Part shown: piece after piece, positions 4,402-61,180 of the stretch | How the letters are laid out: every line of letters begins with the position of its first letter | Numbering within the stretch: the stretch's first letter is position 1 | Assembly (NCBI GenBank): GCA_036346225.1 | Contig: JARFIW010000999.1 | Location: 6,307,001 to 6,371,000 of the forward strand | Direction: 5' to 3' | DNA from: Platerodrilus igneus | Lineage: Eukaryota > Arthropoda > Insecta > Coleoptera > Lycidae | DNA length: 64,000 bases | Notes under the pieces: generated by a model | What the model was told of the DNA's origin: nothing | Databases searched by the model: none | What the model saw: the letters and a program-made list of their open reading frames with translations, nothing else | Translations under genes and position numbers: made by a program

Positions 4402-5251
4402 GCTGGAATTAGAGGAAATAGATGCAAAAAGACGAAAGTTGGACTACATGGAAAACACTGCGACAATATGCCAATAAACCAAAGATGTGTGAGACAAAGA
4501 ACTTTTTATTAGAGAAAATGAGGAAGAATTAAAAGATTATTTTATGTGCCGATGGACTGACTTAGATACATCCGGGTTGTACAAGCTGTATGCATTTGCG
4601 GTTAGTAAGAAAGACTCTTTTAGTTATGTAGGCGTCCTTGCGGAAAAGGATGGTATTAAATCTGTATACCTTTTAAAACATTATTCTAAAAAGGTATTTA
4701 TCGAAATGGCAGATAACATAGACGAACTAAAGAATGCGAGTTTCGTAACCTTGGCGTACACCACACGCAAAGGGGATCCGCTAAACATTGTATATTTGCC
4801 TAGTAAAGAACCTTTCGGATCATTTAAAACCGAGGGTCTTACAACCTATAACAACCATATATTCCCAAAAGTGATGGATATGCAACTACACAACAGTGTG
4901 TGGGAGAAAAAGGATTTCCTCCAATACCGACAAGAAGAAGTCGATCAAGCTAACAAGAAACGTATGCAGGATATAGTGGGAAAGCTGCGATTAAAAGATT
5001 GTCACAAACTGCAAGAATTACACGAAGGAATGGATCTGGTTGTCGGTGGAATCAAAGACTTTAAATATAGAGGCAAACTTCGGTACATTTTACAATTCGA
5101 AAACCTAGACGGTCTTTATGCATCAAACTATTGGTTAGAAAAGGAGATAGAAGACTTGGGTGTCGATTTAAATTTTAAGCTGCGAATACAATTAGATAAA
5201 ATTAAAACCACTGCAAACAAACATAAAGAAAGGACTGTCTTCTGTGTATAA
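4402..5251 (+). pseudogene. C-terminal part of initiator-like protein, copy A
   Basis: Open from 4544 to the stop at 5249-5251; broken-frame similarity to copy B extends back to about 4402 (LEEIDAKRRK). It matches copy B (58797-59627) closely, including FMCRWTDLDTSG, YVGVLAEKDG, FKTEGLTTYN and the end KHKERTVFCV. The last ~90 residues (GIKDFKYRGKLRYILQFEN, then SNYWLEKEI) have the alternating pattern of a small beta-barrel, perhaps an OB-fold nucleic-acid-binding domain. That is an inference without a search. I do not recognise the family by name. The upstream two thirds of the protein, present in copy B, are missing here. Confidence 0.55.
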
Positions 5252-5410
5252 CTTTGTATTAAAATTAAGTTTAAATGACTCCATGCTTGGCATTAAATAT
5301 TTTTAAATTTGTTATGTATAATGTCAGAATAAACATTTTTTAATAGTATATAACATTGTTCTTTATTTATAAAAGGTTGTGACGTTATTCCGAAATAGCA
5401 GTCGCACAGA

Positions 5411-5512
5411 GAGAGGAGCGCATGGGCAGCGTGCATGGGTAGGGGTGCGTATGCGCAGGGGTGCGCATGGGCTGGAGTGTGCATGCGCAGGGGTGCTCAT
5501 GGGCTGGGATGT
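5411..5512. repeat. GC-rich minisatellite in copy A
   Basis: About 100 bp of imperfect ~15-bp units built on GCGCAGGGGTGCGCATGGGC. It begins just after the polyadenylation-like tail region of the initiator-like gene. The matching place in copy B (about 58560-58640) has fewer, different units, so the array length varies between copies. Confidence 0.75.
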
Positions 5513-5596
5513 GTCTGGGCGTACACGAGGGAAGCGAATGTTAACAGTCACCAAGCATTCAATTCTTTATTTGGATGGTATCGAGTACTTGTCTGC

Positions 5597-5735
5597 GTAT
5601 GTATCCGGAGTAAAAGAATACGATTTGCATACGCAGCTTATTAATAAAATTAGTTTATCGAGGGAAGATGACAAAAGGTACATCATTCCTAATAGTACAA
5701 CAATCTACGCATGGGGGCGTAAAGATATAAGATAG
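5597..5735 (+). pseudogene. DNA polymerase B, extreme C-terminal fragment (copy A)
   Basis: The text SGVKEYDLHTQLINKISLS followed by EDDKRYIIPN and IYAWGRKDIR, then a stop at 5733-5735, resembles the C-terminal end of the eukaryotic/viral protein-primed-type family B DNA polymerases found in arthropod mobile elements. Those end with a pattern like HE.YT..NKIALS..DDKR.I and a final YGH-like segment. The assignment rests on my memory of that family. The same fragment occurs in copy B near 58350-58480 (-). It lies upstream of, not downstream of, the next polymerase piece, which is the wrong order for one gene. Confidence 0.6.
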
Positions 5736-6111
5736 TTGTTTATATTTGTATGGATTTTGTAAATCTATTGTATATATTAGTTTTAAGATTCCATAATTTT
5801 TAAGTTCTTCTCCCACCTTCCAAATCCTTCCGGCTTCTATCATGGTTGACAGAGTATACGTGTTATCTCCACGTGGTATTCGCGGGACACGGCGGTTTTA
5901 GATTTCTCGGGAGATGGTTGGCTAAGGCATATGTCTTGCGTACCAAAAAAAGGTTCTAAAGATGGAGTTAAATAAAGATGGGTAAAAATTAGAGGTTTGG
6001 GGTCATTAAAAGGCATAACTTTGTATGGGGTGGTCCTATTTAAAATTTATTTACAGATTTGGGGTCTCTAGAAAAATGATGCCAAACAAAATATATTTAT
6101 CTTAAAAGAGT

Positions 6112-6297
6112 GACTACCCCGCGTATAATAAATACAATATAACACTTGTCAACAAAAAAATTGTAGGGAAAATTAAAGATGTATTTAATGGGGGTCCAGT
6201 ATTAGAATTTGTTGGTAGTAAGGCTAAGTCCTACTGCATTGTAGGCGAGAAAGATACAATTAAAAAGATTAAAGGGGTCTCACGAAGTGTAGTTAAG
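6112..6297 (+). pseudogene. DNA polymerase B, near-C-terminal fragment (copy A)
   Basis: Reads DYPAYNKYN, VNKKIVGKIKDVFNGG, LEFVGSKAKSY and KKIKGVSRSVVK, then a stop codon. Arthropod-element polymerase B proteins carry an NKKVIGKFKDE, EFVGLR and KKAKGVKK.VVK series shortly before their C-terminus, so this should precede the fragment at 5597-5735. Copy B (57798-57998) reads VVGKFKDEF and FVGSRAKSY, closer to the family pattern, which supports real coding ancestry. Confidence 0.6.
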
Positions 6298-6402
6298 TAA
6301 AACCGAGGGTCTTACAACCTATAACGAGCATATACCTCCAAAAGAAATGGACATGCAACTACACAGCAGTGCGTGGGAGAATAAGAATTCTCTTCAATAA
6401 GA
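6298..6402 (+). pseudogene. Duplicated internal piece of the initiator-like gene
   Basis: Directly after the polymerase fragment, about 100 bp repeat the middle of the initiator-like gene: KTEGLTTYN and MDMQLH are recognisable, as at 4830-4930. The same join occurs in copy B at about 57690-57790, so the rearrangement preceded copying of the family. Confidence 0.65.
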
Positions 6403-6739
6403 AATTTAAGTTTCCATGTACGTAGCACCAGTCATTGGGAAATGGTCGAAATGTGAAACCTATAAAAGCGATTATTAATTGTGGTTTAGAAGAATAATAG
6501 TTTTCGTGGACTAAATAAAATAGCTTAATCTGGTTAATGTATATGGTTACATACTCTCGTACACATCCACAAACATCTGTTTACGTCCACAATGACGATA
6601 CCGGTAGTTTTTGTTTAACAAATAGTAGGAAAGATACGTCAGGTGTTAGTGTGCGGAAGCCCATAGGATCGTTGGATTCAAAAAGAACAGTGCGGCGGGA
6701 TGTATGGTGGTCTCCGTTAGAATAATCTAAAGTGGTTAA

Positions 6740-12778: not shown

Positions 12779-12983
12779 AAATTTTATAAAAGGAAATTAT
12801 ATATTTTAAATTAAATAACAAGTACTTAAATGTTAAACAAAATTTTATTATTATTATAAATATAATTTAATAAATTTTATTGTTTTAATCAAGTTTGAGT
12901 CGGACTACATCATGATATAAACTCCCAGCACCACTCAAACAAACAGAAAAAAAGAGAATAATTAATTAAAATTGTTAACATAT
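12779..12983. other. AT-rich non-coding DNA between Gag fragment and inserted gypsy
   Basis: About 200 bp of AT-rich sequence, not Gag-like. Together with 20098-20685 it forms about 790 bp that interrupts the mag-like element and contains the ATAT target of the minus-strand gypsy. It may be an older insertion. Confidence 0.4.
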
Positions 12984-13519
12984 TGTAACGGGCTACTGCT
13001 ACCGCGTTTCTTTAATTTAAAAACAAGTAATAACAATAGTCTTTATTACTCACTGTTCACAAGTCTAATTAACAGTGTATGCCTTATTTATAGATGTTTT
13101 CAGTCCAATTAACGATGAAACACTATCACACTAATGAATTTACAAGCACTAATATCTTCTTAAATTAACTTCTTTACCATAGGTCCATTAACAACACTAA
13201 CACAACTATTTGTTTATACACTTTGTCTATTTATGTATACTACAAGCTGCATGTACATTAGACACAGCATATAACATTTATGTATACACTTGAACTTCCC
13301 AAAAGCTCAACTACTATTACTTTACAACGATATAATTTATATTAGACATTCTAGTATAGACTCACTCTTGCATTCATTAGCGGTCTTATATATACTCTGG
13401 ATTAAAAAAGGATGACTTATGCTACAGTAATTTCTAGAAGAATTCTGGAATCCTTGAGAACAAACAGTGCTTGCGGCGTTTTGTGTGTTTGATGGGTTGC
13501 CTACTAGTAGCTCGCTACA
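12984..13519 (-). repeat. 3' LTR of the macrodomain gypsy
   Basis: 536 bp, the uninterrupted LTR. In element orientation it begins TGTAGCGAGC and ends CCCGTTACA. Its first bases supply the Pol stop codon (TAG at 13515-13517). It preserves the empty site (CTCACTCTTGC followed by ATTCATT) of the insertion found in the other LTR. Confidence 0.9.
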
Positions 13520-14066
13520 CTGCCCCCTCATTAAAACCGTTACGTTTCGTAACTGTAAATACATTTTGACGCCAATTTGATGACTGATGACGGTATCGGC
13601 AGCTATCTCCTCTGGTGCATCCACCACGCTGTTGGAAGTAACAGTCAACACTCTTTTCTTGGTCTTGGTAGGCAACCGGTTGATAACAACACACAAGGAC
13701 CTGGACGTTGGTTTCCTGGAAAACCACTTCAAGCATATTTTGGACTATCCTCCAATCTAAGCGATCCAGTCCACAGCCTAGCTTGGGCACCGCTAGTCTC
13801 GTTACTTCATTTTCCATCATCTGCGTCTTAAGATTTAGCAAAGCCTCCTATAAATGTCCATAACTAGGTCTCTGTCATAAAGAATTTTTGGTGACCAGAT
13901 AGTAAACATAACGATTTTTATCCTGAAGAACCAAAGCTTTTCCTACAGTTGGCTGCTGTGGTACTAATTCATCCACACATCCAAACTTTTTCTTGAAAAC
14001 AACAGCTATTCCCCTTGACATTGCCAAATCTTGAGCTACGCAATGTGCTCTAAACAAATCTTGCTG
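13515..14066 (-). pseudogene. Macrodomain (TARG1/OARD1-like) plus CCCH zinc finger, C-terminal part of gypsy Pol
   Basis: Starting near 14066 (EKQQDLFRAHCVAQDL) the frame of the integrase C-terminus runs on into a macrodomain. It shows AMSRGIAVVFKKKFGCVDEL, a VGKALVLQ segment, YVYYLVTK and VPKLGCGLDRLDW. These match the order in TARG1/OARD1-type ADP-ribosyl-ester hydrolases. The family's catalytic Lys (in FKKKFG) and Asp (in GCGLDRL) are both present. Two in-frame stops (13875-13877 and about 13848) break the domain between its halves; no frameshift lies between them. A CCCH finger follows: C67-x7-C75-x5-C81-x3-H85, counted from 13841 (CYFQQRGG, CTRGDSC, RYRH). The frame ends GAV-stop at the LTR edge. 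Role inferred: removal of ADP-ribose from element or host proteins, perhaps with RNA binding. Confidence 0.8.
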
Positions 14067-15244
14067 TTTTTCAACAACAACGCCAAATCTCGCCTTAGCG
14101 GAACCACTATACGCCGCCATAAAGCTCTCACAATCTACATTTGGCTCATGATTAATAACTTGTCGAACACCATTCTCATCATTCGAGCTTTCTTGGTTAT
14201 TGCCAGCGTAGGATGTTAAACGGTCAAAGTGTACCACTTTCGGTTTACCACGGGGAAATCTTCTGATCCGGTACACTACATCATTAATCCTTTTCATCAC
14301 TTCGTACGGGCCTTCCCATTGTCTTTGTAATTTTGGCGACAACCCACGTTTTCTTTGTGGATTATACAACCACACCAAATCTCCAGGTTCATAACCACCT
14401 TCTTGTGCTCTCGTGTCATATTGTAATTTCATTCGATCGCTTGCTGCCTGGATATTCTTTCGGACGTTTTCGTGAATGCTATTTGATCTTTCACGAAGCT
14501 TACTAACGTAATCTTCACCTGCGATCTCTTCTCCAGGTTTAAATCCCAACTGAAGATCACATGGTAGCCGCAATTCACGTCCTAGCATTACACAAGCGGG
14601 CGAGATACCATGTGCTGTCATGTACCGAAGATCAGTACGCCAGTAGGAACAAATGTAAATATTGGTCCCAGTCTCGTTGATGTTCAGAGACAACTTTGAT
14701 CAGATACTTTCCTAACGTCCTGTTCATTCTTTCAACCATTCCATCCGATTGGGGATGAAGTGGCGTGGTTCTAGTCTTCCTGATTCCAAGATGCTTGCAG
14801 ACGTTTTGAAACAACGCTAATTCGAAGTTCCGACCTTGATCGGAGTGTAATTCCAACGGAACTTCAAAGCGACAAAACAACTCCTTCACTAATACATCTG
14901 CAACCGTTTCGGCTTTTTGGTTAGGTATAGCATATGCCTCCGGCCATTTGGTAAAATAATCCATTGCAACCAAGATGTATTTATTTCCTTTCTCTGATTT
15001 AGGAAACGGATCCAGCTATATCAATGGCTACCTTCTCAAAAGGATTCCCCACGTTATACTGTCTCATTGGGGCTTTCCGTTTTGAGACCGGGCCATTTGC
15101 AGAGGCACACAATTCACATTTCCGGCACCACTCCTTCACATCTTCTTTGCAGTTCGCCCAATAGAATCTTTCCCTCACTCTTTCGAGAGTTCTTTTCACG
15201 CCAAAGTGCCCTCCGGAAATACCATCGTGCAAGTGCAGCAACAC
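14067..15244 (-). pseudogene. Integrase of the macrodomain gypsy
   Basis: The zinc-binding part lies at 15244-14999 (HDGISGGHFGVKRT and CRKCELCAS), with the first catalytic Asp in VAIDIAGSV. The core continues in another frame at 14973 (VAMDYFTKWPEAYA, LHSDQGRNFE, DGMVERMNR, giving the second Asp and Glu). The C-terminal part begins near 14633 (YMTAHGISPACVMLGRELR) with EPGDLVWLYNPQR, a KLQRQWEGPYEV segment (GPY/F-like) and VVHFDRLTSY. About 50 residues of polar linker then join it to the macrodomain. At least two frameshifts are needed to read it through. Confidence 0.85.
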
Positions 15245-15990
15245 TTACGGCACTCTGCTTTTCGGCACTATCACTTGAAGTCTCTCAGTACCGTCTTCAC
15301 ATTCATGGCGTCGTTTCAAGATTCTATTTTCAATCACAAAGGAGTCCCACTGTGCCCAGTATGCCTTCAGGCTCCTACTTGAAATACTAATTTCTTCCCA
15401 AGCTGGTCGTTGTCCTCTACTTTTCCACTCAATAATACGTCCCAATTCGGCGTCATTCTCCTGGTCTTCTCGTATTCTTTCGGGTTGCCAAGTATCATCG
15501 GTTACCGTCGTTCTATGGACGACACTTGTTTTCTCTTCCATCTTGGAACAATAAGTGCAGTCTACCGGACAAGGTCTCCTTGACAAAGCGTCTGCATTCC
15601 GACGGCTAGTTCCTACCCGATGTTCTGTGTCAAAGTCATATTCCTGCAACCGCTCTATCCACCTTGACACTTGCCCTTCAGGATTTTGAAACTGCAGTAA
15701 CCATTTCAGTGCAGCATGGTCTATTCTCAACAGGAATTTACAGCCGTATAAGTACTTATAAAGTGCTCTACAGATTTGACAACGGCCAACAGCTCCCTTC
15801 TTGTCACACAGTAGTTCCTTTCTGGCCGTGACAAAACCTTGCTGAAATACCCAATAACTTTTTCTTGTTCGTCCTGCACTTGAGAAAGAACGCCTCCTAT
15901 AGCTGTGTTACTGGCATCGGTATCTAACACAAATTTCCCCACCATCCGTGGATAACTCAAAATTGGTGCTGTAACTAGTAGCCGTTTCAA
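15245..15990 (-). pseudogene. RNase H and following linker of the macrodomain gypsy
   Basis: RNase H shows LDTDASNTAIGGVLSQ, RRELLAVVKSVEHF, then, in another frame from about 15730, RIDHAALKWLL, RWIERLQEYDF and RRNADALSRRPC. A linker follows (KMEEKTSVVH..., WEEISISSRSL) leading to the integrase zinc-binding region. The frame change near 15730 is one indel. Confidence 0.85.
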
Positions 15991-16098
15991 TTGTTCAAAT
16001 GCACTGTGGCAGTCGTCATTCCAATCATATTCTTGTCCATCTTCGGTTAATTTCGTTAACGGTTTGTCAATGTTCGCAAACCCAAGTATAAAACGTCG

Positions 16099-17130
16099 TT
16101 AATATGTGCACAATCCTAGAAAACTGCATAGTTGGTGTATATCTGCTGGTGTAGGCCACTCTTGTACCGTTTTTATTTTGTCAGGGTCAGCTCTTATTCC
16201 GGTCTCCGAAACGACATGTCCTAGGTATTTTACCTCTATTCCAAACAGGTGACACTTCTTGGGGCTCAATGTAAGATTTGCCCCACGTAATCTTTGGAAT
16301 ATCTCCTCTAGGTTCTTAAGGTGTTCTTCAAAAGACCGGCCTAACACTATCACGTCATCTAGGTACACTAGACAAGTCTTCCAAGACAGTCCACGCAGTA
16401 TCGATTCCATCAATCGTTCAAAAGTAGCAGGGGCATTGCATAATCTAAATGGCATGACCTTGAACTGCCATAATCCAGTTCCAATTGTAAACGCAGTCTT
16501 TTCTTTATCGTTTGGCTCCAAGCCTACCTGGCAGCATCCGCTTTTCAAATCCAAGGTCGAAAACCATTTGGATCCGGATAGAGTATCCAAGGTATCATCA
16601 ATTCTGGGCAAAGGATAGCTGTCTTTCTTTGTCACATTGTTAAGTCGCCGGTAGTCTACACAAAACCTTGTCGACCCATCCTTTTTCTTGACAAGCACTA
16701 CCGGGGATGCCCATGGACTATTCGAAGGTTCAATCACTCCCTGTTCTTCCATATCGGTGAGAATTTGCTCGGCTTCTTTACGTTTTGCCAAAGGAAGCCG
16801 CCTGGGGTGTTGTCTTATCGATTGCGCATCTCCAGTGTTGATCTTGTGTTGCACAACATTCGTCCTTCCTTTCTCACTATCATCTTGTGCAAACATACCT
16901 CGATATCGTCCGACCAGTTCTTTTTCCTTGCCCAGTTGGTCGCCGTTTAATCCTTGACACGAGGGTATCAACATATCCAGCAATTTCTGTGAGCAACCAT
17001 TGGCTGGTTTATCTTTCGTGTCGTCCACACAACGTTTAATATGACATACTGGAATGCAACTTTCCACAATCATGTCTTTCTTCAGGGTCACCGTATGGGG
17101 ATTCATGTTTAGCACCCTTACTGGTATCAT
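16099..17130 (-). pseudogene. Reverse transcriptase of the macrodomain gypsy
   Basis: An open block of 343 codons with the protease-RT linker followed by SPWASPVVLVKKKDGSTRFCVDY-like and RIDDTLDTL motifs, TLDLKSGCCQ, the catalytic YLDD (CLVYLDDVIVLG), and KYLGHVVSETGI. The end (FLGLCTY) is where thumb and connection sequences begin; about 100 bp to RNase H are out of frame. The catalytic Asp pair is intact. Confidence 0.9.
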
Positions 17131-17159
17131 GCTTCGAAACTTTACCAGCGTTCTTCCAA

Positions 17160-17662
17160 TCAGTAATCCTGACCTATTCCCGATTCAATTGCTTCCATCG
17201 TGCATACTTGTCCTTCCCGGAGCGTACCATCAGGGCGTCCCATTACTATCATTTCCGCCTTCTCGGGTATTTTCATTTCGCAAATCATTCGAATTTGCAT
17301 CGTCTTGTTACTCGTACCTTGAAATGGAATCTCATCATCATCTATCCGAAGCACATTTTATTTCATGTTTACAGAAACCCATTCTCTCATAAGATCCATT
17401 CCCAAGATCACTTTTTCAGTAATTTTACAAACACCCGATGATTAATTAGTTTGTCCCCAATTGCCAACGTAACGGCAGTCTCTCCGTGAGTACAAATTTT
17501 CTCACCACTTGCCGTTCGGAGACACACCGATACAGGTAGCACTTTTCCACGACCAACCAAATCTGGTCTCACAATAGTCCTTGTCGCTCCTGTATCCACG
17601 AGTAATCGGACAATCCTACCATTAATTCTACTATCGATATAAATGCTGTCCAGACTTCCCAT
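17160..17662 (-). pseudogene. Protease of the macrodomain gypsy
   Basis: Retropepsin-like aspartic protease that would cut the polyprotein. At 17662-17408, GRIVRLLVDTGATRTIVRPD gives the Asp-Thr-Gly active site. A frame change near 17400 leads to the second half at 17354-17160 (MKIPEKAEMIVMGRPD), where the ILG..D-like turn is only loosely kept. Confidence 0.75.
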
Positions 17663-17701
17663 CGACGATGCAGCACGGATGATAATCTCCGGGGCACTAC
17701 G

Positions 17702-18977
17702 CTATGCTGTCGACGTTCGCTCCCTTACATTGACCTGCTTTAACTCAACCGGTTGTTTCTTTGGTTGAGTACAGCGACTCTGCATATGACCAACTTCACC
17801 GCAGCTCCAGCATCGCATACGCCATCTCTGCGATCGTAATCTTTCCAGCCTTTCCGCTTTTTGTTTTTCAAATCCACGGTTGAGTATTTCTTCTACGCTT
17901 TTTTGTGATTGCTCAGGTTCTTCTAATGCAGACAGAACTTTGCGACTCATCCTGTGTGACGTCTGCTTAGCTGCTTCAAATTCAAGCGCATGAGCCAGTG
18001 CGTCATCTAACATTTTTGACCGTACTAATCTTAGCGCTTGCTGTATTTCACTGTCTTTAATGCCATCCACAAATGTTTGAACAGCCAGTTGTTCGAGGAA
18101 ACTATCTGGTGCAGTTGGATATGCCAATCTAACTAATCTGGCGATGTCAGCTTCGAATTCTTGCAGGCTTTCACTTGTCTTTTGCGTGTGGTTCTTAACT
18201 TGTGCGTGGTAAACCTGTTAAAGGTGAGCGTCTCCATATCTCATCTCAAGCTTTGATGTTAAGAGGCCGTAATCATTCTGCTGGTGATCGGGAATGGTTT
18301 GTAAGATTTTAAGAGCTTCCCCCGTAGGGCCACTATTAAAGAGATAGTCTTCACTTTGTTGCACCAACCGTTGGCTATTGCAGCAGCTTCAAATTATTTC
18401 AAATATGTGGGCCAAGGTGTTTTGCCATCGAATGTGGGTGGTTTCGCTTTAAATTTTGACGGTATTGACTCGCTTCCTTCCATGCTTCTTATTTCTGGAA
18501 TGTTCTGATTTACAGCTTGGTTTACTAATTCAAGTGGGTCATCATTTGTTCTTGAAGCCTCATCACATCTTCTTCCATTTTTAACAATTTATTGTCCAAC
18601 TTTTGCTCAACTGTTTTTACCTGTTTAGTGACATCTTCTTTCAATGCAATGGAGCTTGCTATTAATCTTTGTTCTAACGTGGCCGTCTTTTCATTCAACT
18701 CTTCCATTTTCATCGCGTTTTCACTAAACCGTTCCTCTATTTTCTTTGCATTTTCACTTAACCTTTCGGTAAGGTTTGATTCCAGTTCAACTGACCACAC
18801 TAAGTTTTCATTTAGTGTCACTTCCAGTTTAGCCTACCTCTCTTCCATTTTCTCAGCATTTTCACTAAGCATCAATTCTAGTTTAGCCGACCTCTTCTCC
18901 ATACCGGATTTAAAATCCTTGAGGAAATTCATTAAAGTTTCTGCTTCCATTTTACTTTGACTTCTTGTAACTGGCAT
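17702..18977 (-). pseudogene. Gag of the macrodomain gypsy, coiled coil plus one zinc knuckle
   Basis: A start Met at 18977 opens MPVTRSQSKMEAETL, followed by repeated E/K/L-rich segments (SENAEKMEER, EERFSENAMKMEEL, VEQKLDNKLLKMEED) that predict a long coiled coil. An in-frame TAG lies near 18839. After frameshifts around 18400-18130 the C-terminal part (AYPTAPDSFLEQLAVQTFVDG) leads to a CCHC knuckle, CWSCGEVGHMQSRC. The start was chosen as the first Met downstream of the 5' LTR and primer site. Expected role: particle assembly and RNA packaging. Confidence 0.8.
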
Positions 18978-19036
18978 ATACAAACTACTCAAATGTCTTT
19001 AGACTTAATTAATCACCCAACACAGCCTGACACCAG

Positions 19037-20097
19037 TGTAACGGGCTACTGCTACCGCGTTTCTTTAATTTAAAACAAGTAATAACCAGAGTCTTTATTA
19101 CTCACTGTTCACAAGTCTAATTAACAGTATATGCCTTATTTATAGATGTTTTCAGTTCAATTAACAATGAAGCACTATCACACTAATGAATTTACAAGCA
19201 CTAATATCTTCTTAAACTAACTTCTTTACCATAGGTCCATTAACAACACTAACTCAACTATTTATTAATTATACACTTTGTCCATTTATGTATACTACAA
19301 GCTGCATGTACATTAGACACAGTATATAACATTTATGTATAAACTTGAACTTCCAAAAGCTCAACTACTATTACTTTACAACGATATAATTTATATTAGA
19401 CATTCTAGTATAGACTCACTCTTGCCGCCGTACATTTGCTGGACGCGACGCTCTCAGCGTCGCTATAGTGCCATGTAACTCCACGAGTTTTTCGGCATGT
19501 TGAAATTTCTTCTTCTGGTAAGTTGTGGTTTGTAGTTGATGTTAATGTTCTTGATATATATTTATATATGTAGGTCTGGATTCCAAGAGACCTGCTCCTG
19601 GAATCTTCTTGGTTTGGTGCAGTGAGCAGTTTCCCGGATCTTCCCCTCAGTTGTCCTCCTACTACACAGTATTCCGGATCCTGGGTCCACTGGCCTGTGG
19701 TTATCGCCTAACAGAACTGGCTACTCGCCACAGGCCGCTCCATCGTCAGGTAGCTCGTCTAAACAGGACTGACGGGTGTGCATCCCCGACGACTTCACTT
19801 GTGTGCCCATTCCTCGGCACCCCGCATAGCTGGAGAACTCCCTCAGGACGTCACCGTTCCGCTGCCCACCTTTGAACGCTCCGAACGCGGTGGTCGGAAT
19901 ACGTGAGCTGTTACCCCATCGGAGTCTGGGCAACAACTCTCACTCTTGCATTCATTAGCGGCTTATATATACTCTGAATTCAAAAAGGATGACTCATGCT
20001 CCAGTAATTTTCGAGAAGAATTCTGAAATCCTTGAGAATAAACAGTACTTGCGGCGTTTTGTGTGTTTGATGGGTTGCCTACTAGTAGCTCGCTACA
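19037..20097 (-). repeat. 5' LTR of the macrodomain gypsy, carrying an insertion
   Basis: Equivalent to 12984-13519 once the 513-bp insert at 19426-19938 and one copy of its 11-bp duplication are removed. In element orientation its inner edge is followed by CTGGTGTCAGGCTGTG, a candidate primer-binding site. Confidence 0.9.
19426..19938. mobile_element. Unidentified 513-bp insertion in LTR with 11-bp target duplication
   Basis: Flanked by CTCACTCTTGC on both sides (19415-19425 and 19939-19949). The sister LTR has one copy and no insert, so this is a true insertion. It is GC-richer than its surroundings and starts CGCCGTACATTTGCTGG. It has no obvious terminal inverted repeat, poly(A) tail or LTR-type TG/CA ends. 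An 11-bp duplication is more usual for target-primed (LINE-mobilised) insertions. Class not assigned. Confidence 0.75.
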
Positions 20098-20685
20098 ATA
20101 TATTCTGTGATTAGTCCCGGGTATTCTGATTCCTTCGAATAAGTTAGTTTGATGTACGGTTGGAATATCTTCAGCCGAATTAGGAATGATTGCTTCATAG
20201 TGATCTCCATGTATCAAATCCCTGACATTTCCAGCGCAATGAACTACAGCTAAAGACTCGCGAACTAATTGATCTTCTTTTGCACAAAAATTATATGATG
20301 TGAAACTGAAGCCGAAATAATAATAAGAATCATTTGGATATCTATTAAAGTTTATATTAGTTTGTACTGTTAACATTTCTCAAATAAATTCGATTATCTC
20401 GAAAACTAAATGAGATATCGAAAAGTGTATAGCATATTTATAATCAGCGTAAAAACTAAACAAGGTACATATATATCATTTATTGTATCATTATGGGAAT
20501 ATAGCAACGGACGACGGCGGCGACGACGACGTAGCGATTATATTAACCTAACTTACTTCGTAAGTTTGGTTGATAATTACAAAACTGACTGAACATTTTT
20601 CTCTGAAATCTTCTACAGTAGTTCAGTGCTATAAGTTTTATAAAAGAGTTCAAAAACAGAACGAATCAATTAGTACTTTTTGAGG
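20098..20685. other. Unassigned DNA with a possible minus-strand coding remnant
   Basis: The minus strand of 20376-20100 reads MLTVQTNINFNRYPN...LIHGDHYEAIIPNSAED. The GDHYEAIIP motif recalls the C-terminal histidine region of OTU-type cysteine proteases found in some mobile-element proteins; this is a weak resemblance only. The plus strand has a GAC/GGC-rich stretch at 20508-20535. The region sits between two LTR elements inside the mag-like element. Confidence 0.3.
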
Positions 20686-27127: not shown

Positions 27128-28540
27128 ATGGTTATATCAATTGATAAAGCTATTCTTGAAGCTAGATTTGTAGTTAAAAAGTTGGATCATATATACAGTA
27201 AAATTAATCAACCGGAAAATGTATCGATTGCTTTAATTAGAGCGTCGATTAAAAGTGTCGAGCAGATTGAAACGCATTTTAAATCTTTTTGCAAAGATAT
27301 TTTCTTTGATGAAGAAAGTGAACAATTGGATGAATTTTCGGCTCTTAGGGTGAAAATCGATGACTATCTATTAGATATTCGTATTATCTCTGAACAATGC
27401 GAATTAGATCGGGTAGAAAATAAGCCAAAGGTGAAAAATATGAATAATTCTTTTTCGCCAAATTGTTGAATTTGCTTGAAACATCTTTCTGTCCCACGGT
27501 TCTCCGGACGCATTTCAGATTTTGAGAGTTATAATGCAATTTATAACCGGTTGATTCACGATAATGTCGGTTTGTCCCCTGTGGAAAAATTTTGCCATCT
27601 CGTTGATACACTAGATGAGTCGTCGCGTATGTTAATAAAACACTTGCCATTAAATGATTATGCATACGAGGAAGCCTATAAAATCATTACTAATCGTTTT
27701 CAGTCCAAGAGGTTATTACTTTCAACATATTTTAATGCTCTTGAAAAATGCCCTAAGGTCAGTTCCTCAGACTCGCATACGGATCTCCGGCAATTAATTA
27801 GTTGTTTTGATGAAAATATATTCGCGCAAAGGCAGATGGAAATAGATTTATTAGATTTCGTGTTGTTTAATCCGTTATCAAAAAAATTAGATACAAACAT
27901 TTTAAAGCGTTTCGAATTAGAAAATAATGACGAAATTCCTTCGTTCAAAGGTTTAAGGTAGTACATTGAAAAACAATGTAAGGTGTTGGAAATAAATGAC
28001 ATTGCTTCAGGAATATGCCTGAAATCTCGAGATTCCGTTAAAGAAAGAGAAAAAGGAAGGTTTGTTAGCGCTTCGGCTAAAACTTCTTTAGTTGGTACCA
28101 CCAATGATGGTAAAAATTGTAGTTTATGTCAAGCTGTACATTCTATTTATAGATGTAAGCAGTTTCTCGATAAAACCCCTCAAGAAAGATTTGAGGTGGT
28201 AAAGCTTAAAAATCTTTGTATCAAATGCTTAAATACTTCACATTCGATGAAAAATTGTACGTTAGATTGGTCGTGTAGAAAATGTCATCAGTCGCACAAT
28301 TTGTTACTCCACTTCGATAAACAAGAAAAATCGATGTCTCCACGCAGACAAACCCATCGTCGAAGGTCAGCGTCTCCTCGGAGAGCGGCGCCTACACTTA
28401 CTTCTACTAGTAGACCTAGTGAAGACAATCTGTCGTCGTCGGTTGTGCATGAACAACCTGCCACTAGCTCGTTGATTTCGACGTCATTAGAACACACAAC
28501 CACGCTGTTAGCTACGGCAATGGTGTCGGTGCTTGATTAT
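27128..28540 (+). pseudogene. BEL/Pao Gag
   Basis: One reading frame with stops at 27467 (TGA) and 27959 (TAG). The start at 27128 (MVISIDKAILEARFVVKKLD) gives the helical N-terminal part. LSVPRFSGRISDFESYNAIYNRLIHDN is the conserved Pao Gag core pattern, given here only as landmarks at about 27480-27570. Zinc-finger-like segments CSLCQAVHSIYRC, CIKCLNTSHSMKNC and CRKCHQSHNLLLH are the typical BEL triplet. The 5' leader from 26635 to 27127 shows no other gene. Confidence 0.88.
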
Positions 28541-30191
28541 ACAGGAAACTTGCAACCTGTTCGTGTAATATTAGTTAACGGATATATGGAAAGTTTCATG
28601 ACTGAAAGGTGCTGTCAGAAATTAGGTTTAAGGAAACGGAGAGCCAATGTCACTGTTCAAGGACTTGGCTTGAATTCGTTGTTAGTGTCTGGTGCACTAT
28701 CGTGTGTAGTCAGCCACTCGGGAGCACGGTCTCCAGCATATGGAATTGATTGTTATATTTTACCTAACATTTGTAATCAATTACCTTCGTCGTCGATAGG
28801 GGTCAAGGAATGGTCGCATACTCGAGGTTTGGCCTTAGCTAATCCTAATTTTAATATTCCTGGTAAAATTGACATGCTACTCGGAGCGGAAGTCTTTGCT
28901 CAGGATTTGTTAAACGAATCTCGTTGGGATGTCGCTAACGAGCCAGTTGCTATTAAAACAACCTTTGGTTGGGTTTTAACGGGAAAGGTCGTTTTCCCGA
29001 ATAGTTCTATTACGTCGTTGTGTGCTTTCGTTGAGCCCTTAGACTGTGACATTCGTCGATTTTGAGAATTAGAAAATATTCCCTTCAAAAAACACATTTC
29101 TCCTGAAGAAGAAAGTTGTGAAAATCAATTTGTGGAAAATTATAGACGTAACAAAGACGGTCGTTTTGTAGTATCCTTGCCCTTTAAAATTTCGGAACCC
29201 TCATTCGTGGGTATGAGATCAATTTGTATTAAAAGATATTTTGTCGTTAGAACGTCGTTTGTTCAAAAATCCTGAATTGTATTCGGATTATAAAAAATTT
29301 ATGGAGGATTATTTGACAAGCGGTAATATGGTTCAAGTGAAATCGCCTGAAAATTTATCAGTTAAAGAGAAAATGTATTACATTCCCCATCATGCTGTAC
29401 ATAAGCGTAATAGCACTACCACCAAATTGCGTGTGGTTTTCGATGCTTCGTGTCCAGATCAATCTGGAAATTCGTTAAATAATAGCTTGGCTATTGGCCT
29501 CACTCTGCAAAAGGACATTGCAGTTTTGTTATTGCACTTTCGTGTACATCCTATCGTAATTACAGCTGACATCAAACAAATGTATCGGCAGATTTTGGTT
29601 AAAGATACTCATCGTGATTATCAACGTATCGTCTGGAGATTTTCTCCGTCAGATCCTATTATGGACTTTAAATTAAATACTGTGACCTATGGAGTTTCGT
29701 CGCCGCCTTTTTTGGCCTTGCGTACTGTTCAAGAATTGGCAAGGTTAGAATCAATTAATTTTCCTTTCGCGTCATTGGTATTGGCGAGCAATACCTATGT
29801 TGATGACTTAGTCACTGGATGCAATTCGATTGAAGCTGCTAATCAATTAATTGGTGAATTGAATAGTATTTGCACTAGTAGTGGTTTTCAATTAAGAAAA
29901 TGGAGTAGTAATTGCCCGGAAGTGATGTCCAACTTGAGGGAGTCCCTGTCCAGTTCGGACGCAATTACATTTCAAGATAAAGATAGTGGTTCAATAAAAA
30001 TTTTGAGCCTTTCGTGGCGTGCTCTTACAGATGCATTTTTATACAACTTAGACGTTGAAGAGCGCACCTGCACTAAGCGTAATATTTTGTCGGCTATCGC
30101 CAAAATCTTTGATCCTCTCTGTTTGATTGCACCTGTAGTACTGTTCGCTAAACGTTTAGTTCAAGATCTTTGGCTTTTAGGTCTCGGGTGA
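28541..30191 (+). pseudogene. BEL/Pao protease and reverse transcriptase
   Basis: The protease region reads VRVILVNGYMESFMTERCC where family members have an Asp-Ser-Gly at the active site, so the catalytic Asp appears lost (Asn). Downstream IDMLLGAEVF and TTFGWVLTG are normal for the family. A frame change between 29065 and 29241 leads to RT: LRVVFDASCPDQSGNSLN, ITADIKQMYRQILV, YGVSSPPFLALRTV and the catalytic YVDDLVTGC. A stop at 30189 ends the block. Confidence 0.88.
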
Positions 30192-30206
30192 GACCAAAAG
30201 CCTCCA

Positions 30207-32322
30207 TTGGAAGTCATACAAAAATTGAAACATTTTTTGGGTGAATTGCCAGCGGTTTCGAATATTGAGATTTCGCGTCGCATCGTATGTCATCATTTTA
30301 AAAAGGTGAAGTTGCATGGGTTCTGTGATGCTTCTGAAGCTGGGTATGCAGCTGTCATCTATTTTCGTTCGTTCGATCTAGAAGGTAATATTACCATGTC
30401 ATTAGTATGCGCAAAATCGAAGGTTGCTCCTACTAATCGTGTTTCATTGCCCCGTCTCGAATTGCGTGCTGCCGTACTCTTGTCAGATTTAGTAGATTTC
30501 GTCAAAAATATTTATACAGATATTTTATCCTTTAGTAATATTTTCGCGTGGTCAGATTCTACTATTGTTTTGTCTTGGATTCGGTCTTCCTCGCATAAGT
30601 GGAAGACATTCGTTAGCAATTTCATTTCGCAGATTCAAGAACGTATTCATCCATCTTCGTGGTTTCATGTTAAGTCCCAGGATAACTCTGCGGATTGTGC
30701 CTCACGTGGACTTTTGACTTCAAAGTTGGTTTATCATCCATTATGGTGGACAGGGCCTTCCCGGTTAGTGCGTCGTAGCGAAGAATGGCCAGTAACGTCG
30801 CTGCCAAACCTTATCGACTCATTTGAGATGGACGTCGAATATCGTACTTTGTCATTAACAGTCGTTATGTCTGAGAATTTCTTAGATTTGTTGTTGGATA
30901 AATTTTCAAAACTGCAGAAAATTTGTAGGATTATTACCTGTGTTCGTCATTTCATTCGTAATGTTCAATGTCCAGATTTGCGTTCAAAATATTCTGATAG
31001 TTTGTCTCTAGCTCAACAGCAAGAGGCTATACATTTATTGATTAAAAGAGTTCAAACAAATGTTTTTGCCCAAGACATTGCTAATATTAAAACTGGAAAA
31101 CTTCGTAGCCTTATTCCGTTTCTAGATAGTCGTGATGTTTTTTTTGGGGTGGGCGGTCGCCTACGTAACTCAGAGTTATCGTATGATGCAAAATTTCCAA
31201 TTTTGCTTCCTCGTTCGCATCGGTTGACTGAAATTATTATATTAGATTGTCATGAAAGACATTTACATCCTGGAAATCGAACAACTAAGTTTTTACTAAC
31301 TCAAAATTATTGGATCTTGTCCGCCAAGAGGGCTATTCGGCAATGTCTGAAATCCTGCATTCGTTGTTTTCGTGTAAACCCTGCGGCTTTAAGCCCCCCT
31401 ATGGGGGATTTACCAGCTTCTCGGTTAACTCCAGGTAAGGCGTTTTTACATACGGGGGTCGACTTTAGTGGACCTTTCTCTGTCACGATGAATCGATGTC
31501 GTGGCGCAAAATCATTGAAAGCGTACATTTGTCTATTCATTTGTTTCAGCACGAAGGCTATCCATTTGGAACTAGTGTCTAACTTGTCGACAGACGCTTT
31601 CTTGGGTGCTTTACGTCGATTTATTGCTCGAAGAGGCAAATGTATTCAAATCCATTGTGATAATGGTACTAATTTCGTTGGGGCCTCTCGTGAAATCTCT
31701 CAATTGATGCGCCATTCGTCAGCGCGTTGAGGGAATCGAATTTGTGTTTAATCCTCCTGCTGCTCCTCATTTCGGTGGGTTATGGGAGGCCGGGATTAAA
31801 TCGGTAAAATCCCATTTAAAGAGAATTATCGGTGAACAAATTTTGTCGTTTGAAGAATTCTCGACGGTATTGATTTAAATCGAAGCGATTCTCAACTCAC
31901 GTCCACTATGCGCACTGAGTTGTGAACCGCATGATTTTTCGTATTTGACCCCGGGTCATTTTCTTAATGTTGAACCAGTCTCGGTGTTACCAGATCCAGA
32001 TTTGTTGTCCATAAACCCCTCTCGTTTGAATCGCTGGCAACTGTTGCAGCAAATGCAACAAGAGTTTTGGAAGAAATGGAGTGCTGAATACCTGCACACG
32101 TTGCAGCAGAAAGATAAGTGGTTGAGGAATTCCGCTAACCTACCTATTGATTCGCTTGTCCTCTTAAATGAAGAAAATAACCCCCCTCTACAGTGGCGTT
32201 TAGGAAGAGTAGTAGATGTTCACCCTGGTAGAGACGGTATCGTTCGGGTAGCTACAGTCAAGACATCCCAAGGGTTAGTTAAACGCCCCCTAGTGAAACT
32301 ATGTTTACTGCCAGTTACTTGA
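30207..32322 (+). pseudogene. BEL/Pao RNase H and integrase
   Basis: RNase H: LHGFCDASEAGYAAVIY, PRLELRAAVLL, AWSDSTIVLSWI and NSADCASRGL. Integrase: zinc-binding HERHLHPGNRTTKFLL with CLKSCIRCFRVNP, the first Asp in GVDFSGPF and the second in HCDNGTNFVGA. A frame change at about 31730 follows, and the Glu region (HFGGLWEAGIKSVK) is readable to a stop near 31876. The C-terminal part (SYLTPGHFLNVEPVS..., QWRLGRVVDVHPGRDG, RPLVKLCLLPV) ends at 32322 and is typical of Pao Pol proteins. Confidence 0.9.
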
Positions 32323-51422: not shown

Positions 51423-51787
51423 TGTGATGGTGTAATAGCCAAATATCATAATAATTTATAGTTATTTCTTCGAATTAAGTGTTATGCATTTAAAAGGTGA
51501 GTGACTTGTTATAGGAAGTGAAAAGTGCGGATTTGTACAGGAAGACAATCGATAGGAAGTACACGTGCAACGAACTCTAGGCTAGGTGTAATTTGAATTA
51601 GTAAATAAGCATAATTGCATAATCATTGTTAGCAGTTAAGAACTAATATAGAATAAGAGCATTATAAGTCTAACCCTCAGATGTAACAGTTGCACTGCAC
51701 CTTAAAGTGACAAGTAAATTAAAGATGTGAAATGGTCTTCGACTTTGTTTCAATCACCTCTACTGAAGCCCCCAAGAGAACACTACA
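51423..51787 (+). repeat. 5' LTR of 17.6-like element
   Basis: 365 bp. Immediately followed by TGGCGATCCTGCC at 51788 (likely primer-binding site) and a short array of CCCTGCCAG/CCCTGCTA units to about 51870. Confidence 0.93.
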
Positions 51788-52162
51788 TGGCGATCCTGCC
51801 AGCCCTGCTGACCCTGCCAGCCCTGCTAATTCTGCCAGTCCTGTAATTCTGCGAGTCCTGCTAGTTCTACAGATTAAATTATAATAACCGAAATTTGAAA
51901 TGGGCACCAACAATTCCAAAAAAGAAGTAGTTGTTGCACAAACTGGAATGAATAATGGTTCGATAAATGGCTATTCAAATTCTGAGGTAATAGGTATTAC
52001 GTCAGGTACAATTTTAGCGTTGTTGGGTATTTTATTACTTTTTTAAATGTTCAAGAAAATGTTGGACAAGAAGATTAGGAGAGAGGTCAGTAGAAGCCAG
52101 CAGATTGTATAGTAAGAATTATTTTATTTTAAGCTATAAAAATTAAGTACGAGTTAAAATTA

Positions 52163-53308
52163 ATGACGGAACTTTTGAAGCAAATTTTAGAGGAATTTAA
52201 GATTTTTATAAAAAATTTAAATAAAGATGGTCAAGAAAGACGAAACGATTTAGATGTTACTAATAAGAAATTTGATTATTTGAATAGGTTATGCGAGGAG
52301 TATAGGTTAGAGAAAGATAAGATTAAAGTCGCAAAATTTGATAGTTCTGAAATTATCGATAAAGTTAAGCAGCACATAGCCATAATAGATAAGTCTATAG
52401 GAGATATTACTGAAGTTTTAACAAGTAGGAAGTTAAGTATTTTAAGTAGGAAAAATCAAGACACCATGGGTGAAAAATTTGAATTAAAAGTAGCAGCCTC
52501 TATGATTCCAGCCATGGACGGTTCAGAAAATACCACCAAGCAAATGGTCGACGCAATTGAACTATATGATAGCTTGTTAGATGATGAAGGTAAGAGATTG
52601 TTAGTGAATTTTGTCATAAAAATTAAGTTAAGTCAAAATGCTAAAATGCGATTAGGCAGTAAGTATGAGAATGTAGAAGCGCTTGTGAACGATATCAAAC
52701 ATCACCTTTTAACTAAAAAATCAGCATCAGGATTGTCCGCCGAATTACATAACTCCAGACAAAATAATAAATCAATAGAAAATTTTGGTAAAACGATCGA
52801 GGAATTAATGGTCAATTTAACAATAGCTCAAGCAGAGGGTAACAAACAATCATTAAAAATTTTGACAGCCGCTAACGAAAAAATTGCATTAAACGTATTT
52901 ACAAACGGAATAAGGGACGAAAATTTAATAACAATTATGAAAGCTCGAAATTACAATAAATTAAAAGACGCCATAATAGCCGCGAAGGAAGAGGAAATTG
53001 CAAATAAACCTCAGCAAATGTATTACACAACCGGAAAAGGTCGTCAATTTACTAGACGCGTAAAATATCATAACAATAATACAAATAGAAGTCAACGTAC
53101 CTCACACACCAGGTATCAAGGTCGAGGAAATAATCCATGCATGTTCATGAACACTAGAGATCGAGGAAATGCATATGTAAGTAAAACTGTAAGAGGTCAT
53201 CAGTTTCATAATAGGGGAAACCATCGCAATTTTTACATCAACTCGTCAGAGAAAAACTCCACAGAAAATATATTAGACCAAACTAGGGAACCGAAAACAT
53301 TTTTTTGA
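52163..53308 (+). CDS. Gag of 17.6-like element, intact frame
   Basis: A 381-codon frame with no interruption, starting MTELLKQILEEFKIFIKN. The N-terminal ~100 residues are lysine/glutamate-rich helices. The middle (MVDAIELYDSLLDDEGKRLL, VKHHLLTKKSAS-like) fits Gag capsid of the 17.6/mdg group. The C-terminal ~100 residues are basic with RG and N-rich stretches (RRVKYHNNNTNRSQR, RYQGRGNNP) and no CCHC knuckle, which fits groups that bind RNA with a basic tail. It ends in a T6 run (ACATTTTTTTGAG counted with flanks), beyond which pol is in the +1 frame. Confidence 0.85.
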   Translation: MTELLKQILEEFKIFIKNLNKDGQERRNDLDVTNKKFDYLNRLCEEYRLEKDKIKVAKFDSSEIIDKVKQHIAIIDKSIGDITEVLTSRKLSILSRKNQDTMGEKFELKVAASMIPAMDGSENTTKQMVDAIELYDSLLDDEGKRLLVNFVIKIKLSQNAKMRLGSKYENVEALVNDIKHHLLTKKSASGLSAELHNSRQNNKSIENFGKTIEELMVNLTIAQAEGNKQSLKILTAANEKIALNVFTNGIRDENLITIMKARNYNKLKDAIIAAKEEEIANKPQQMYYTTGKGRQFTRRVKYHNNNTNRSQRTSHTRYQGRGNNPCMFMNTRDRGNAYVSKTVRGHQFHNRGNHRNFYINSSEKNSTENILDQTREPKTFF

Positions 53309-53480
53309 GACCCCCCGGAATAATTTAAGGAATGTTCACAACATTTTAAATATTAATAGTGTAAATTTCATAGAAGTCGGATACAATAACAATACAATTA
53401 AATTAATTTTAGATACAGGAGCATCAGTAAGTGTTATTTTCATTTCTAGTTTAACAACTAAGATAAATATTGATACAAAT
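53307..53480 (+). pseudogene. Protease start of 17.6-like element, truncated
   Basis: In the +1 frame relative to Gag: NILNINSVNFIEVGYNN, then LILDTGASVSVIFIS with the Asp-Thr-Gly active site. After about 20 more residues (INIDTNKQIV) the sequence jumps into the RT/RNase H boundary of the same element type, so the rest of protease and the RT core were deleted. Confidence 0.85.
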
Positions 53481-54249
53481 AAACAAATTGTCTAGGAAAG
53501 GTGTAACTTTCCAATGGACCAATGAATGTCAAGCAGCATTCAAACTGTTAAAAACAACTTTAGCAAACCCACCAATATTGCAATACCCAGATTTTTCAGA
53601 TAATAGTACATTCATCTTACGCACGGACGCATCAGGTTACGCGTTAGGAGCAGTTTTGTCGAATGGCGACGACAAGCCAGTAGCTTACGCAAGTAGAGCA
53701 CTTAACAAAGCCGAAATAAATTATTGTACAATAGAAAAAGAGTTATTAGCTATAGTATGGGCAGTGAAAAAATTTAGACCATACTTATTTGGCAAAAAAT
53801 TTCAAATTTTAACGGATCATAGACCGTTAGTATACTTATTTGGTATGAGTAATCCATCTAGTCGATTAACAAAATTTAGGTTAACATTAGAAGAATTTGA
53901 TTTTACAATAACGTATATTAGGGGTACAGAAAACGTGACAGCGGACGCTTTATCTAGAATTATTATAGATTCAGATTATTTAAAGAATATGGAGCGAGCG
54001 GTTCACGAAAAAGTATATGTAACAACAAGAGCCCAAAGTAGAAAATTAGGCGACTCTCAAGTCGAATCAAAAGCATCAAAGGATGATGGGACTGATCACC
54101 CCAACATTGTTGAACTTTTGAAGCATCCGAAGGATGCAACAGAATTACGATTTGTAGCAGAGAAGGAGTTTAACAGAATCATTAAATCCAAAAATGAAAT
54201 AATTTTGTTTACATGCATGTATCAATTTATGATAGGAGTAAAAATATAA
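53470..54249 (+). pseudogene. RNase H of 17.6-like element after RT deletion
   Basis: Begins with the RT-connection text NKLSRKGVTFQWTNECQAAF and continues LRTDASGYALGAVLSNGDD, YASRALNKAEINY, EKELLAIVWAVKKFRPYL, LTDHRPLVYLF and ENVTADALSR. All RNase H landmarks are intact. A linker of about 100 residues ends at a frame change near 54230. Confidence 0.9.
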
Positions 54250-55497
54250 TTTATTTGAAGCAAGGATCTCGATCAGCGTCAGCCTTCGAAGCGTCGTTGA
54301 GAGACCTGCAATTTCTTCGTAGAGAATTTACAATTCCGGAATTTATTATTATAAAAAACGAAGAATCGAAGTCATTTTAAATAACTGTAAAGCCGGCCGC
54401 AATTTATTTAAAAAAATGACATACGAATTAGTGTGATTAGGGAAATCACTAATATTCAAAACTCAGAAACGCAAAGATTCATCATTAATGATTTTCATTT
54501 ATTGCTTACGGGAGGTCACGCGGGCATCAATAGAACATACAATAATATAAAGCGATACTATTTTTGGTCAAGTATGCGAAAGGATGTAGAAACATTTATT
54601 AAAAAATGTGACGAATGTCAAAGACATAAACATTCAAATATTAGCAAACAGCCGATGATAATTACAACCACAGCATCCGAAGCTTTCGAAAAAGTTTTTT
54701 TAGACTTAGTTGGACCATTGCAGCAAGATGCAAATGGAAACAGGTACATTTTGACACTACAGTGTGATTTAAGTAAATTTGTAGAAGCATATCCATTACC
54801 AAACAAAGAGACTGAAAGTGTAACTAGAGCGTTTGTCGAGAATTTTATTTTACGCTACGGCATCCCACGCGAAATTTTAACGGATAAAGGTTCAGAGTTC
54901 ATGTCGGAGATTTTTAAGAAAACTTGCAAATTATTAAACATAAAGCAGTTAAATTCTACAGCTTATCATCACGAAACTATCGGTGCGCTCGAAAACTCAC
55001 ATAAAAATTTAGCAGTATATTTAAGGACCCAATGTCCGCAGTATTCAAATAATTGGAGCAGTTGGATACCTTATTGGTGTTTTGCATACAATAATTCAGT
55101 GCATACGGAAACTAAATATACCCCGCACGAATTAGTATTTGGGAAAATTAATCAAATACCGTCAAACGTGGTAAACTCAGTAGACCCACTATATAATTTT
55201 GATAATTATCCAGCAGAACTTAAGTATAGATTGCAAGTCGCTGGAAATGAAGCGAGATATAATTTATTACAATCCAAAAGTAAACGAAAGAATAAGTTTG
55301 ATATCAAAACTAAGCATGTTAATTATAAATTTAGAGATAAGTTGTTGGTTAAGAATACATCTCTTAATAAAAGAGATCCAATATTTGTAGGCCCATATGA
55401 AGTAGTTTTAGATAAGAATCCTAATGTTATAGTTAAGATAGATAATAAGTTAGTAGAAATCCATAAGAATAGGATAAAATTATATAACGTATTGTAA
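54250..55497 (+). pseudogene. Integrase of 17.6-like element
   Basis: Open from 54433. Zinc-binding GGHAGINRTYNNIKRYYF and KKCDECQRHKHS; core Asp in VFLDLVGPL, Asp in LTDKGSEFMS and Glu in IGALENSHKN. The GPY/F-like FVGPYEVVLD follows, and the end is IHKNRIKLYNVL. The stretch 54250-54432 links to RNase H across a frame change. HHETIGALENSH is characteristic of the 17.6/297 group. Confidence 0.9.
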
Positions 55498-55555
55498 TTT
55501 AGAAAAAAAAATTTTATTTGAAAAACAAAAATTTTTTTAGTGCACCCCGTGGAGG

Positions 55556-57561: not shown

Positions 57562-57689
57562 ACATTAATCAGTCTAAGCTATTTTATTTAGTCCACGAAA
57601 ACTATTATTTTTCTAAACCACAATTAATAATCGTCTTATAGGTTTAACATTTCTACCATTACCCAATGACTTTAATTTCTTATTGGAGA

Positions 57690-61179: not shown

Positions 61180-61180
61180 G

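Follow-up and report, generated by a model that had tools for sequence, protein, structure and literature searches.

A Ty3/gypsy retrotransposon of the beetle Platerodrilus igneus with a predicted TARG1-type macrodomain and a CCCH zinc finger behind its integrase

We analyzed a stretch of 64,000 nucleotides from the genome of the beetle Platerodrilus igneus (contig JARFIW010000999.1, positions 6,307,001 to 6,371,000; hereafter the window) and found that it carries a Ty3/gypsy retrotransposon whose Pol ends in a predicted macrodomain of the TARG1/OARD1 type followed by a CCCH zinc finger. One frame on the minus strand, running from 14699 to 13515, encodes the integrase C-terminus, a linker, the macrodomain and the finger, with the motifs AHC...GIAVVFKKKFG...YVYYLVTK, GCGLDRLDW and C-x7-C-x5-C-x3-H in this order. 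The macrodomain region is interrupted by two in-frame stops and was searched as two pieces, N and C, on either side of them. Searched separately, both pieces matched human OARD1/TARG1 (C6orf130), with E-values of 3.5e-15 and 1.6e-9, respectively. The finger matched the CCCH fingers of CPSF4 and scored 21.8 bits against Pfam zf-CCCH, above the gathering cut-off of 20.5. The original prediction, made from the letters of this DNA, that a gypsy Pol ends in this putative pair of domains was thereby confirmed. Its description of the frame was correct in that the motifs are continuous with the integrase C-terminus; it did not mention the two stops, and the integrase core lies in another frame. Over positions 13518-14120 the coding frame contains two stops, compared with 9-15 in each of the other five frames, and the purine-rich stretch directly before the 3′ long terminal repeat (LTR) is itself part of the macrodomain-CCCH frame.

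The numbering and role of the TARG1 residues K84 and D125, as well as the TARG1 pattern TKx(30,35)Px[IL]GxGxD, hereafter the strict pattern, were taken from passages of PMC6397177. The residues of this pattern exist in the window copy, but the two stops fall inside its span. These stops recur in 2 and 5 of 30 copies from the same genome (window counted), and they therefore appear to be mostly private decay. The Pol of the window copy is scattered over several frames with stops, and no single intact Pol frame was found; the window element is a decayed copy.

To describe the family to which this copy belongs, we searched its own genome (2.71 Gb), where the numbers of first-look candidates given below are unconfirmed as copy numbers. 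A DNA search with the macrodomain-CCCH stretch yielded 3272 such candidates, and all 40 that were scored matched. Thirty loci were fetched, one of which was the window itself. In all of the 29 others the stretch was preceded by an integrase C-terminal match (only 44 bases in L017; in part in L029 and L040) and followed by an LTR match (only 52 bases in L038, about 90 in L028, and from LTR base 158 in L021), so that the predicted position between integrase and 3′ LTR held for 29/29 copies. Across the 30 copies, window included, the D125 equivalent was present in all and the K84 equivalent in 27, the remaining three having a gap in the alignment there; each CCCH ligand was present in 28 or 29. 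A sample independent of the trait was obtained with the integrase DNA alone as query, and the first 20 of 39 other matches were checked. Eighteen of them carried the whole macrodomain-CCCH stretch and the other two a part of it: in L085 the macrodomain was mostly gone, and in L095 only the first half of the stretch was matched. The strict pattern was intact in 8 and the CCCH motif in 15 of these 20 copies; three of them (L082-L084) are spaced about 6 kb from each other on a single contig and are possibly not independent. The original prediction had named copies lacking the extension as the finding that would expose a chance neighbour; with 29/29 flanked copies and the whole stretch in 18/20 integrase-picked ones, we ruled out a chance neighbour. 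Judged from these copies, the macrodomain-CCCH stretch is fixed in a high-copy element family.

Human TARG1 as query gave 8982 first-look candidates in the same genome. The 150 that were scored were all 46-50% identical to it over nearly the whole domain, and 13 had an internal stop. Among 30 fetched loci, the integrase was nearby in 29, integrase and macrodomain shared one open stretch in 20, and the CCCH finger was included as well in 10; open stretches without the finger had an early end, a frame change or an altered ligand, in single copies. The strict pattern was found in 24 of the 30, and the other six had a stop inside the match. Nearest neighbours among 28 loci of equal length were 93.3-99.7% identical, with no identical pair. 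The sole fetched locus without an integrase nearby (L054) scored like an element copy. No host TARG1 gene was told apart in this search, in which a gene split by introns could be missed.

The two halves of the window copy differ in their closest matches. Positions 14201-14634 are 97-98% identical to the closest integrase copies. Positions 13520-14200 are only 85.4-92.5% identical in the 18 whole integrase-picked loci, and L017-L019 match at 93-94%. A mosaic origin from two subfamilies is possible for this copy.

Selection was measured as the ratio of nonsynonymous to synonymous substitution rates (omega) on the loci fetched by DNA similarity to the window. Four poorly aligned or rearranged rows (L017, L029, L030 and L040) were dropped, leaving 26 copies; the TARG1-query loci, picked by protein score, were left out. 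Omega was 0.35 (0.25-0.49) for the macrodomain and 0.32 (0.23-0.48) for the integrase C-terminus, compared with 0.76 (0.51-1.12) and 0.88 (0.61-1.41) in the out-of-frame controls of the macrodomain and 0.75 and 1.27 in those of the integrase. The CCCH finger alone gave 0.35 (0.13-0.89). The linker (29 codons; 0.45, 0.19-1.41) and the finger together with the tail (0.55, 0.28-1.12) were not clearly below 1. With all 30 rows kept, the values were 0.40 for the macrodomain and 0.50 for the integrase C-terminus, and 0.69-0.90 and 0.79-1.10 in the respective out-of-frame controls. Purifying selection thus acts on the macrodomain as it does on the integrase C-terminus, and the test of selection across copies proposed with the original prediction came out in its favour.

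A protein search with an unbroken piece of 274 residues returned 204 proteins at E <= 1e-4, and the best 120 were examined. The best matches include proteins of the longhorn Aromia moschata and the leaf beetle Diabrotica virgifera, of Exocentrus adspersus, Molorchus minor, Callosobruchus maculatus and Gonioctena quinquepunctata, which we take to be beetles of the longhorn and leaf beetle families, and of metagenomes; 'C3H1-type domain-containing protein' is one of the names under which proteins of this kind are deposited. Of the 120 proteins, 41 had a whole or partial macrodomain match, and 21 of these 41 had a CCCH motif behind it, some of the others being shortened or ending in other frames. 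Many relatives without a macrodomain end some 10-20 residues past the integrase domain. Pfam Macro matched 14 of 23 relatives at E <= 0.01, and the K84 and D125 equivalents were both present in 24 of the 28 relatives that could be scored at both positions. The mean pairwise identity among 14 diverse relatives was 66.7% for the integrase C-terminus, 51.6% for the macrodomain and 49.4% for the CCCH finger (66/91 pairs), and the linker (31.4%) and tail (28.0%; 51/91 pairs) were less conserved. The domain pair that had been predicted for one element is therefore an architecture shared by the copies in its own genome and by beetle relatives.

For the fold, we used a structure model of a natural relative (P0012), whose macrodomain part has pLDDT values mostly of 80-95 and whose sequence matches human TARG1 over 135 residues (E 1.1e-28). 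Foldseek ranks 1-8 for this model were all C6orf130/TARG1, with the crystal structures 4j5s and 4j5r at 1.0-1.1 Å and 40% identity. The next best fold match was the macrodomain of the bacterial DNA ADP-ribosyl hydrolase DarG (5m3e; E 2.2e-9, 20% identity), which is clearly more distant than TARG1. The model thus suggests that TARG1 is the closest solved fold of the element macrodomain, and the predicted TARG1/OARD1-type identity was borne out by both BLAST and Foldseek, with human TARG1 as the nearest solved relative.

The origin of the fusion was approached with a quick tree of integrase C-termini (117 of the 120 best proteins plus the window). A branch with 99% SH-aLRT support divides this tree. 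On one side are all 41 macrodomain-bearing rows, the window included, 12 rows whose tail was classed by hand as short or unclear, and four rows without a macrodomain; the opposite side holds 60 rows without a macrodomain and one unclear row. With unclear rows omitted, four state changes are needed. The pattern fits one gain and some losses; because the root was not inferred, the direction of gain is one that we infer. In one protein on the macrodomain side (P0042) the integrase runs directly into a tail resembling that behind the CCCH finger, which may represent a loss of the macrodomain-CCCH stretch. In a macrodomain tree, the element macrodomains, including the N half of the window copy, form one group apart from the human and viral-contig ones (99/95).

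Related macrodomains were found at 14 loci of viral contigs (IMG/VR), and the C piece of the window copy matched phrog_335 (E 9.4e-9). A profile of the family scored human TARG1 at 146 bits and viral-contig macrodomains at 122 at most, and human TARG1 was the best BLAST match of 20 of the 23 element macrodomains, often narrowly (107 versus 106 bits in several cases; P0018 tied at the digits given). We rejected a bacterial or phage origin on the higher scores of human TARG1; the macrodomain tree, which includes no insect host TARG1, separates the groups without ranking their closeness to the element group. No matches in viral contigs were obtained with the N half, the reverse transcriptase, the integrase C-terminal piece, the integrase core or the query A2. 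In genome contigs the integrase core had no match and the N half had one bacterial match; in phages the N half had no match, and the C piece hit 8 records, in which three phages are entered twice. Neither the N half, used as a region, nor the C piece retrieved a match from a protein database.

What the domain does for the element can be proposed from these data. The sequence data show a fusion that is fixed in the family, purifying selection, catalytic residues that are retained and, in a relative, a predicted TARG1 fold. They fit a high-copy Ty3/gypsy Pol ending in a putative ADP-ribosyl hydrolase of the TARG1 type and a CCCH finger, which would strip ADP-ribose so that retrotransposition can finish. 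We give this reading, in which we infer both the activity and the substrate, about even chances. A single capture would have brought a TARG1 domain into Pol, where it would have persisted as an ADP-ribosyl hydrolase that travels with the integrase or is cut from it. The finger, to judge by its class, may hold the macrodomain on complexes of element RNA or complementary DNA (cDNA). The macrodomain would then strip the ADP-ribose that host PARP-type enzymes put on Glu or Asp of the integrase or other element proteins, or alternatively act on cDNA ends or integration gaps, and reverse transcription or integration could finish. Passages of PMC8501950 and PMC5725667 describe that TARG1 strips ADP-ribose from Glu/Asp, from PARP3-modified DNA ends and from thymidine. 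A TARG1 domain joined to the integrase and to a finger of the nucleic-acid type would be in a good position to clear the integrase, cDNA ends or integration gaps of such marks. We are doubtful of a wider version, according to which one ancient capture of an animal TARG1 into a gypsy lineage spread through beetles and relatives, the product being an integrase-linked nucleic-acid de-ADP-ribosylase at cDNA ends or integration gaps, with some members as dead ADP-ribose readers. A captured enzyme that is kept by an LTR element reveals a limiting host step, and a selected, multi-copy, integrase-linked ADP-ribose eraser would point to a part for ADP-ribosylation in insect retrotransposition, either as a barrier or as a signal.

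Several observations weigh against the hydrolase. Pfam Macro matched the C piece of the window copy only at E 0.07, below the gathering cut-off, and had no match to the N piece at E <= 1, so the Pfam check proposed for both domains succeeded for the finger alone. The strict pattern was found in only 3 of the 120 best relatives, partly since many of them have A, S, T or E in place of the first G of GxG. The D125 equivalent is lost in 4 of the 28 scoreable relatives (P0013, P0017, P0018 and P0028), which retain macrodomain and CCCH finger, and the K84 equivalent is changed to arginine in two of these four. Because of these four relatives, an enzymatic reading alone does not account for every member of the family. 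Selection on the macrodomain, moreover, is uninformative about its substrate. The main alternative is accordingly a reader, an ADP-ribose-binding module that would steer the integrase to ADP-ribosylated chromatin or breaks, with hydrolysis secondary. The position of the macrodomain behind the integrase C-terminal domain suits such a role. Chromoviruses carry a chromodomain at the same place in Pol; they resemble the present element in that a further folded domain follows the integrase C-terminal domain, and differ in that it is a chromodomain and not a macrodomain with a CCCH finger. The four relatives without the aspartate form one group in the macrodomain tree (92/95, just below the tool's star), and since such catalytically degenerate relatives exist, binding alone may suffice in some lineages. 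However, the catalytic pair of most relatives and the D125 equivalent of every fetched copy go beyond what a binding pocket needs, and P0018 stands apart in the integrase tree from the other three, which group with an unclear row (97), so the aspartate may have been lost more than once. On balance, we consider a reader rather improbable; the relatives form a natural set of catalytic and degenerate versions in which eraser and reader can be compared.

The hydrolase could also serve counter-defence: like viral macrodomains, it would remove ADP-ribose with which host antiviral PARPs mark the RNA or particles of the element. Alphavirus and coronavirus macrodomains have the same fold and were among the fold matches of the P0012 model, but at only 12-20% identity, and the element domain is of the TARG1 type; insects, moreover, have few PARPs, and we regard this role as unlikely. 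It is favoured by a report of macro-domain proteins in other retroelements, the endogenous retroviruses of ray-finned fish (2009 work, as cited in a passage of PMC4977317), but in these epsilon-like sequences the macro domain is placed in additional open reading frames (ORFs), whereas the window element, an insect-type gypsy, has it in Pol, of TARG1 type and with a CCCH finger. The least probable explanation, to which we attach very little weight, is a passenger, captured once and carried without function. The broken window copy and the absence of all or part of the stretch from L085, L095 and P0042 would agree with it, but it is mostly contradicted by the omega values, which resemble those of the integrase C-terminus, and by the higher identity of the macrodomain and the finger compared with the linker and the tail.

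With TARG1/OARD1 (C6orf130), then, the element domain shares the predicted fold, the K84 and D125 equivalents and, in 24 of 30 TARG1-query loci but 8 of 20 integrase-picked loci and 3 of the best 120 relatives, the strict pattern. It differs in being fused behind a gypsy integrase with a CCCH finger after it, in the replaced first G of GxG in many beetle relatives and in the four losses of the aspartate. Other enzymes acquired by LTR elements include an m6A-demethylase-like ORF in orchid gypsy elements (in passages of PMC9289625) and a GDSL esterase and a DEDDy exonuclease as ORF3 in bdelloid elements (in passages of PMC5408684), which are separate ORFs and other enzymes; 'macro' as the start of a word is absent from the main texts of both papers. 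The first quarter of PMC6338049 names accessory domains of LTR elements, a macrodomain not among them, and among the open-licence papers listed, titles and abstract openings named no LTR retrotransposon with a TARG1 macrodomain and a CCCH finger in Pol. According to passages of PMC6397177, the insect sequences with the strict pattern number 84 in its survey, 58 of them from Brachycera and 26 from 'Climorpha'; that survey was limited to proteins of 130-230 residues, and fusions like the window element would therefore have been left out.

The LTR pair, a short target duplication and the domain order identify the window element as a Ty3/gypsy LTR retrotransposon, as far as sequence features define one (Table 1). 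Both LTRs start with TGTAGCG and end with CCCGTTACA, and Pfam fragments on the minus strand follow the order gag with a CCHC knuckle, protease, reverse transcriptase, RNase H and integrase. Aligned with each other, the two LTRs show 20 mismatches over 541 columns without gaps (K about 0.038; 11 LTR positions fall in both aligned pieces). An insert of about 510-520 bases is nested in the 5′ LTR at about 19426-19949, including one copy of an 11-base target duplication, GCAAGAGTGAG.

Table 1. Features of the Ty3/gypsy element in the window
Feature	Position	Strand	Basis or remark
Whole Ty3/gypsy element	12984..20097	-	LTR starts and ends, flanks, Pfam matches of gag, protease, reverse transcriptase, RNase H and integrase fragments
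4-base flank duplication ATAT	20098-20101 and 12980-12983		Read at both ends
5′ LTR	19037..20097	-	Split by nested insert
Gag CCHC zinc knuckle	17765..17815	-	Pfam zf-CCHC, E 1.1e-4
Protease fragment	17408..17701	-	Pfam gag-asp_proteas, E 8e-8
Reverse transcriptase fragment	16099..17184	-	Pfam RVT_1, E 1.6e-32
RNase H fragment	15727..16098	-	Pfam RT_RNaseH_2, E 1.5e-30
Integrase H2C2 zinc-binding fragment	14999..15244	-	Pfam Integrase_H2C2, E 7.3e-19
Integrase core fragment	14632..15015	-	Pfam rve, E 1.1e-15, and ORF coordinates; frame differs from C-terminal part
Integrase C-terminal domain (GPY/F-like)	14217..14312	-	Pfam Integrase_p58_C, E 5.1e-13; in macrodomain frame, linker of ~40 residues after it
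Predicted TARG1/OARD1-type macrodomain	13689..14096	-	Ends from alignment; broken by two in-frame stops; lacks 21 bases that most fetched copies have
In-frame stops breaking the macrodomain	13877-13875 and 13850-13848	-	
Lysine codon, TARG1 K84 equivalent	13887..13889	-	Alignment
Aspartate codon, TARG1 D125 equivalent	13764..13766	-	Alignment
CCCH zinc finger C-x7-C-x5-C-x3-H	13587..13643	-	Pfam, alignment
Terminal stop codon	13515..13517	-	Lies a few bases into the 3′ LTR
3′ LTR	12984..13519	-	536 bases

Other features were noticed in the window. Positions 4404-6540 and 57562-59645 are inverted copies, 86% identical, with open frames nearby; the frames 4493-5248 (+), 59539-60174 (-) and 60217-61347 (-) near this unit had no Pfam match at E <= 0.01. 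A gypsy-like element at 51423-55919 has LTR-like ends that are 98% identical, and its last open frame (54412-55497) stops behind the integrase without an extra domain, as judged by eye. Also by eye, from its translation, 27470-31730 appears to be a Bel/Pao-like element.
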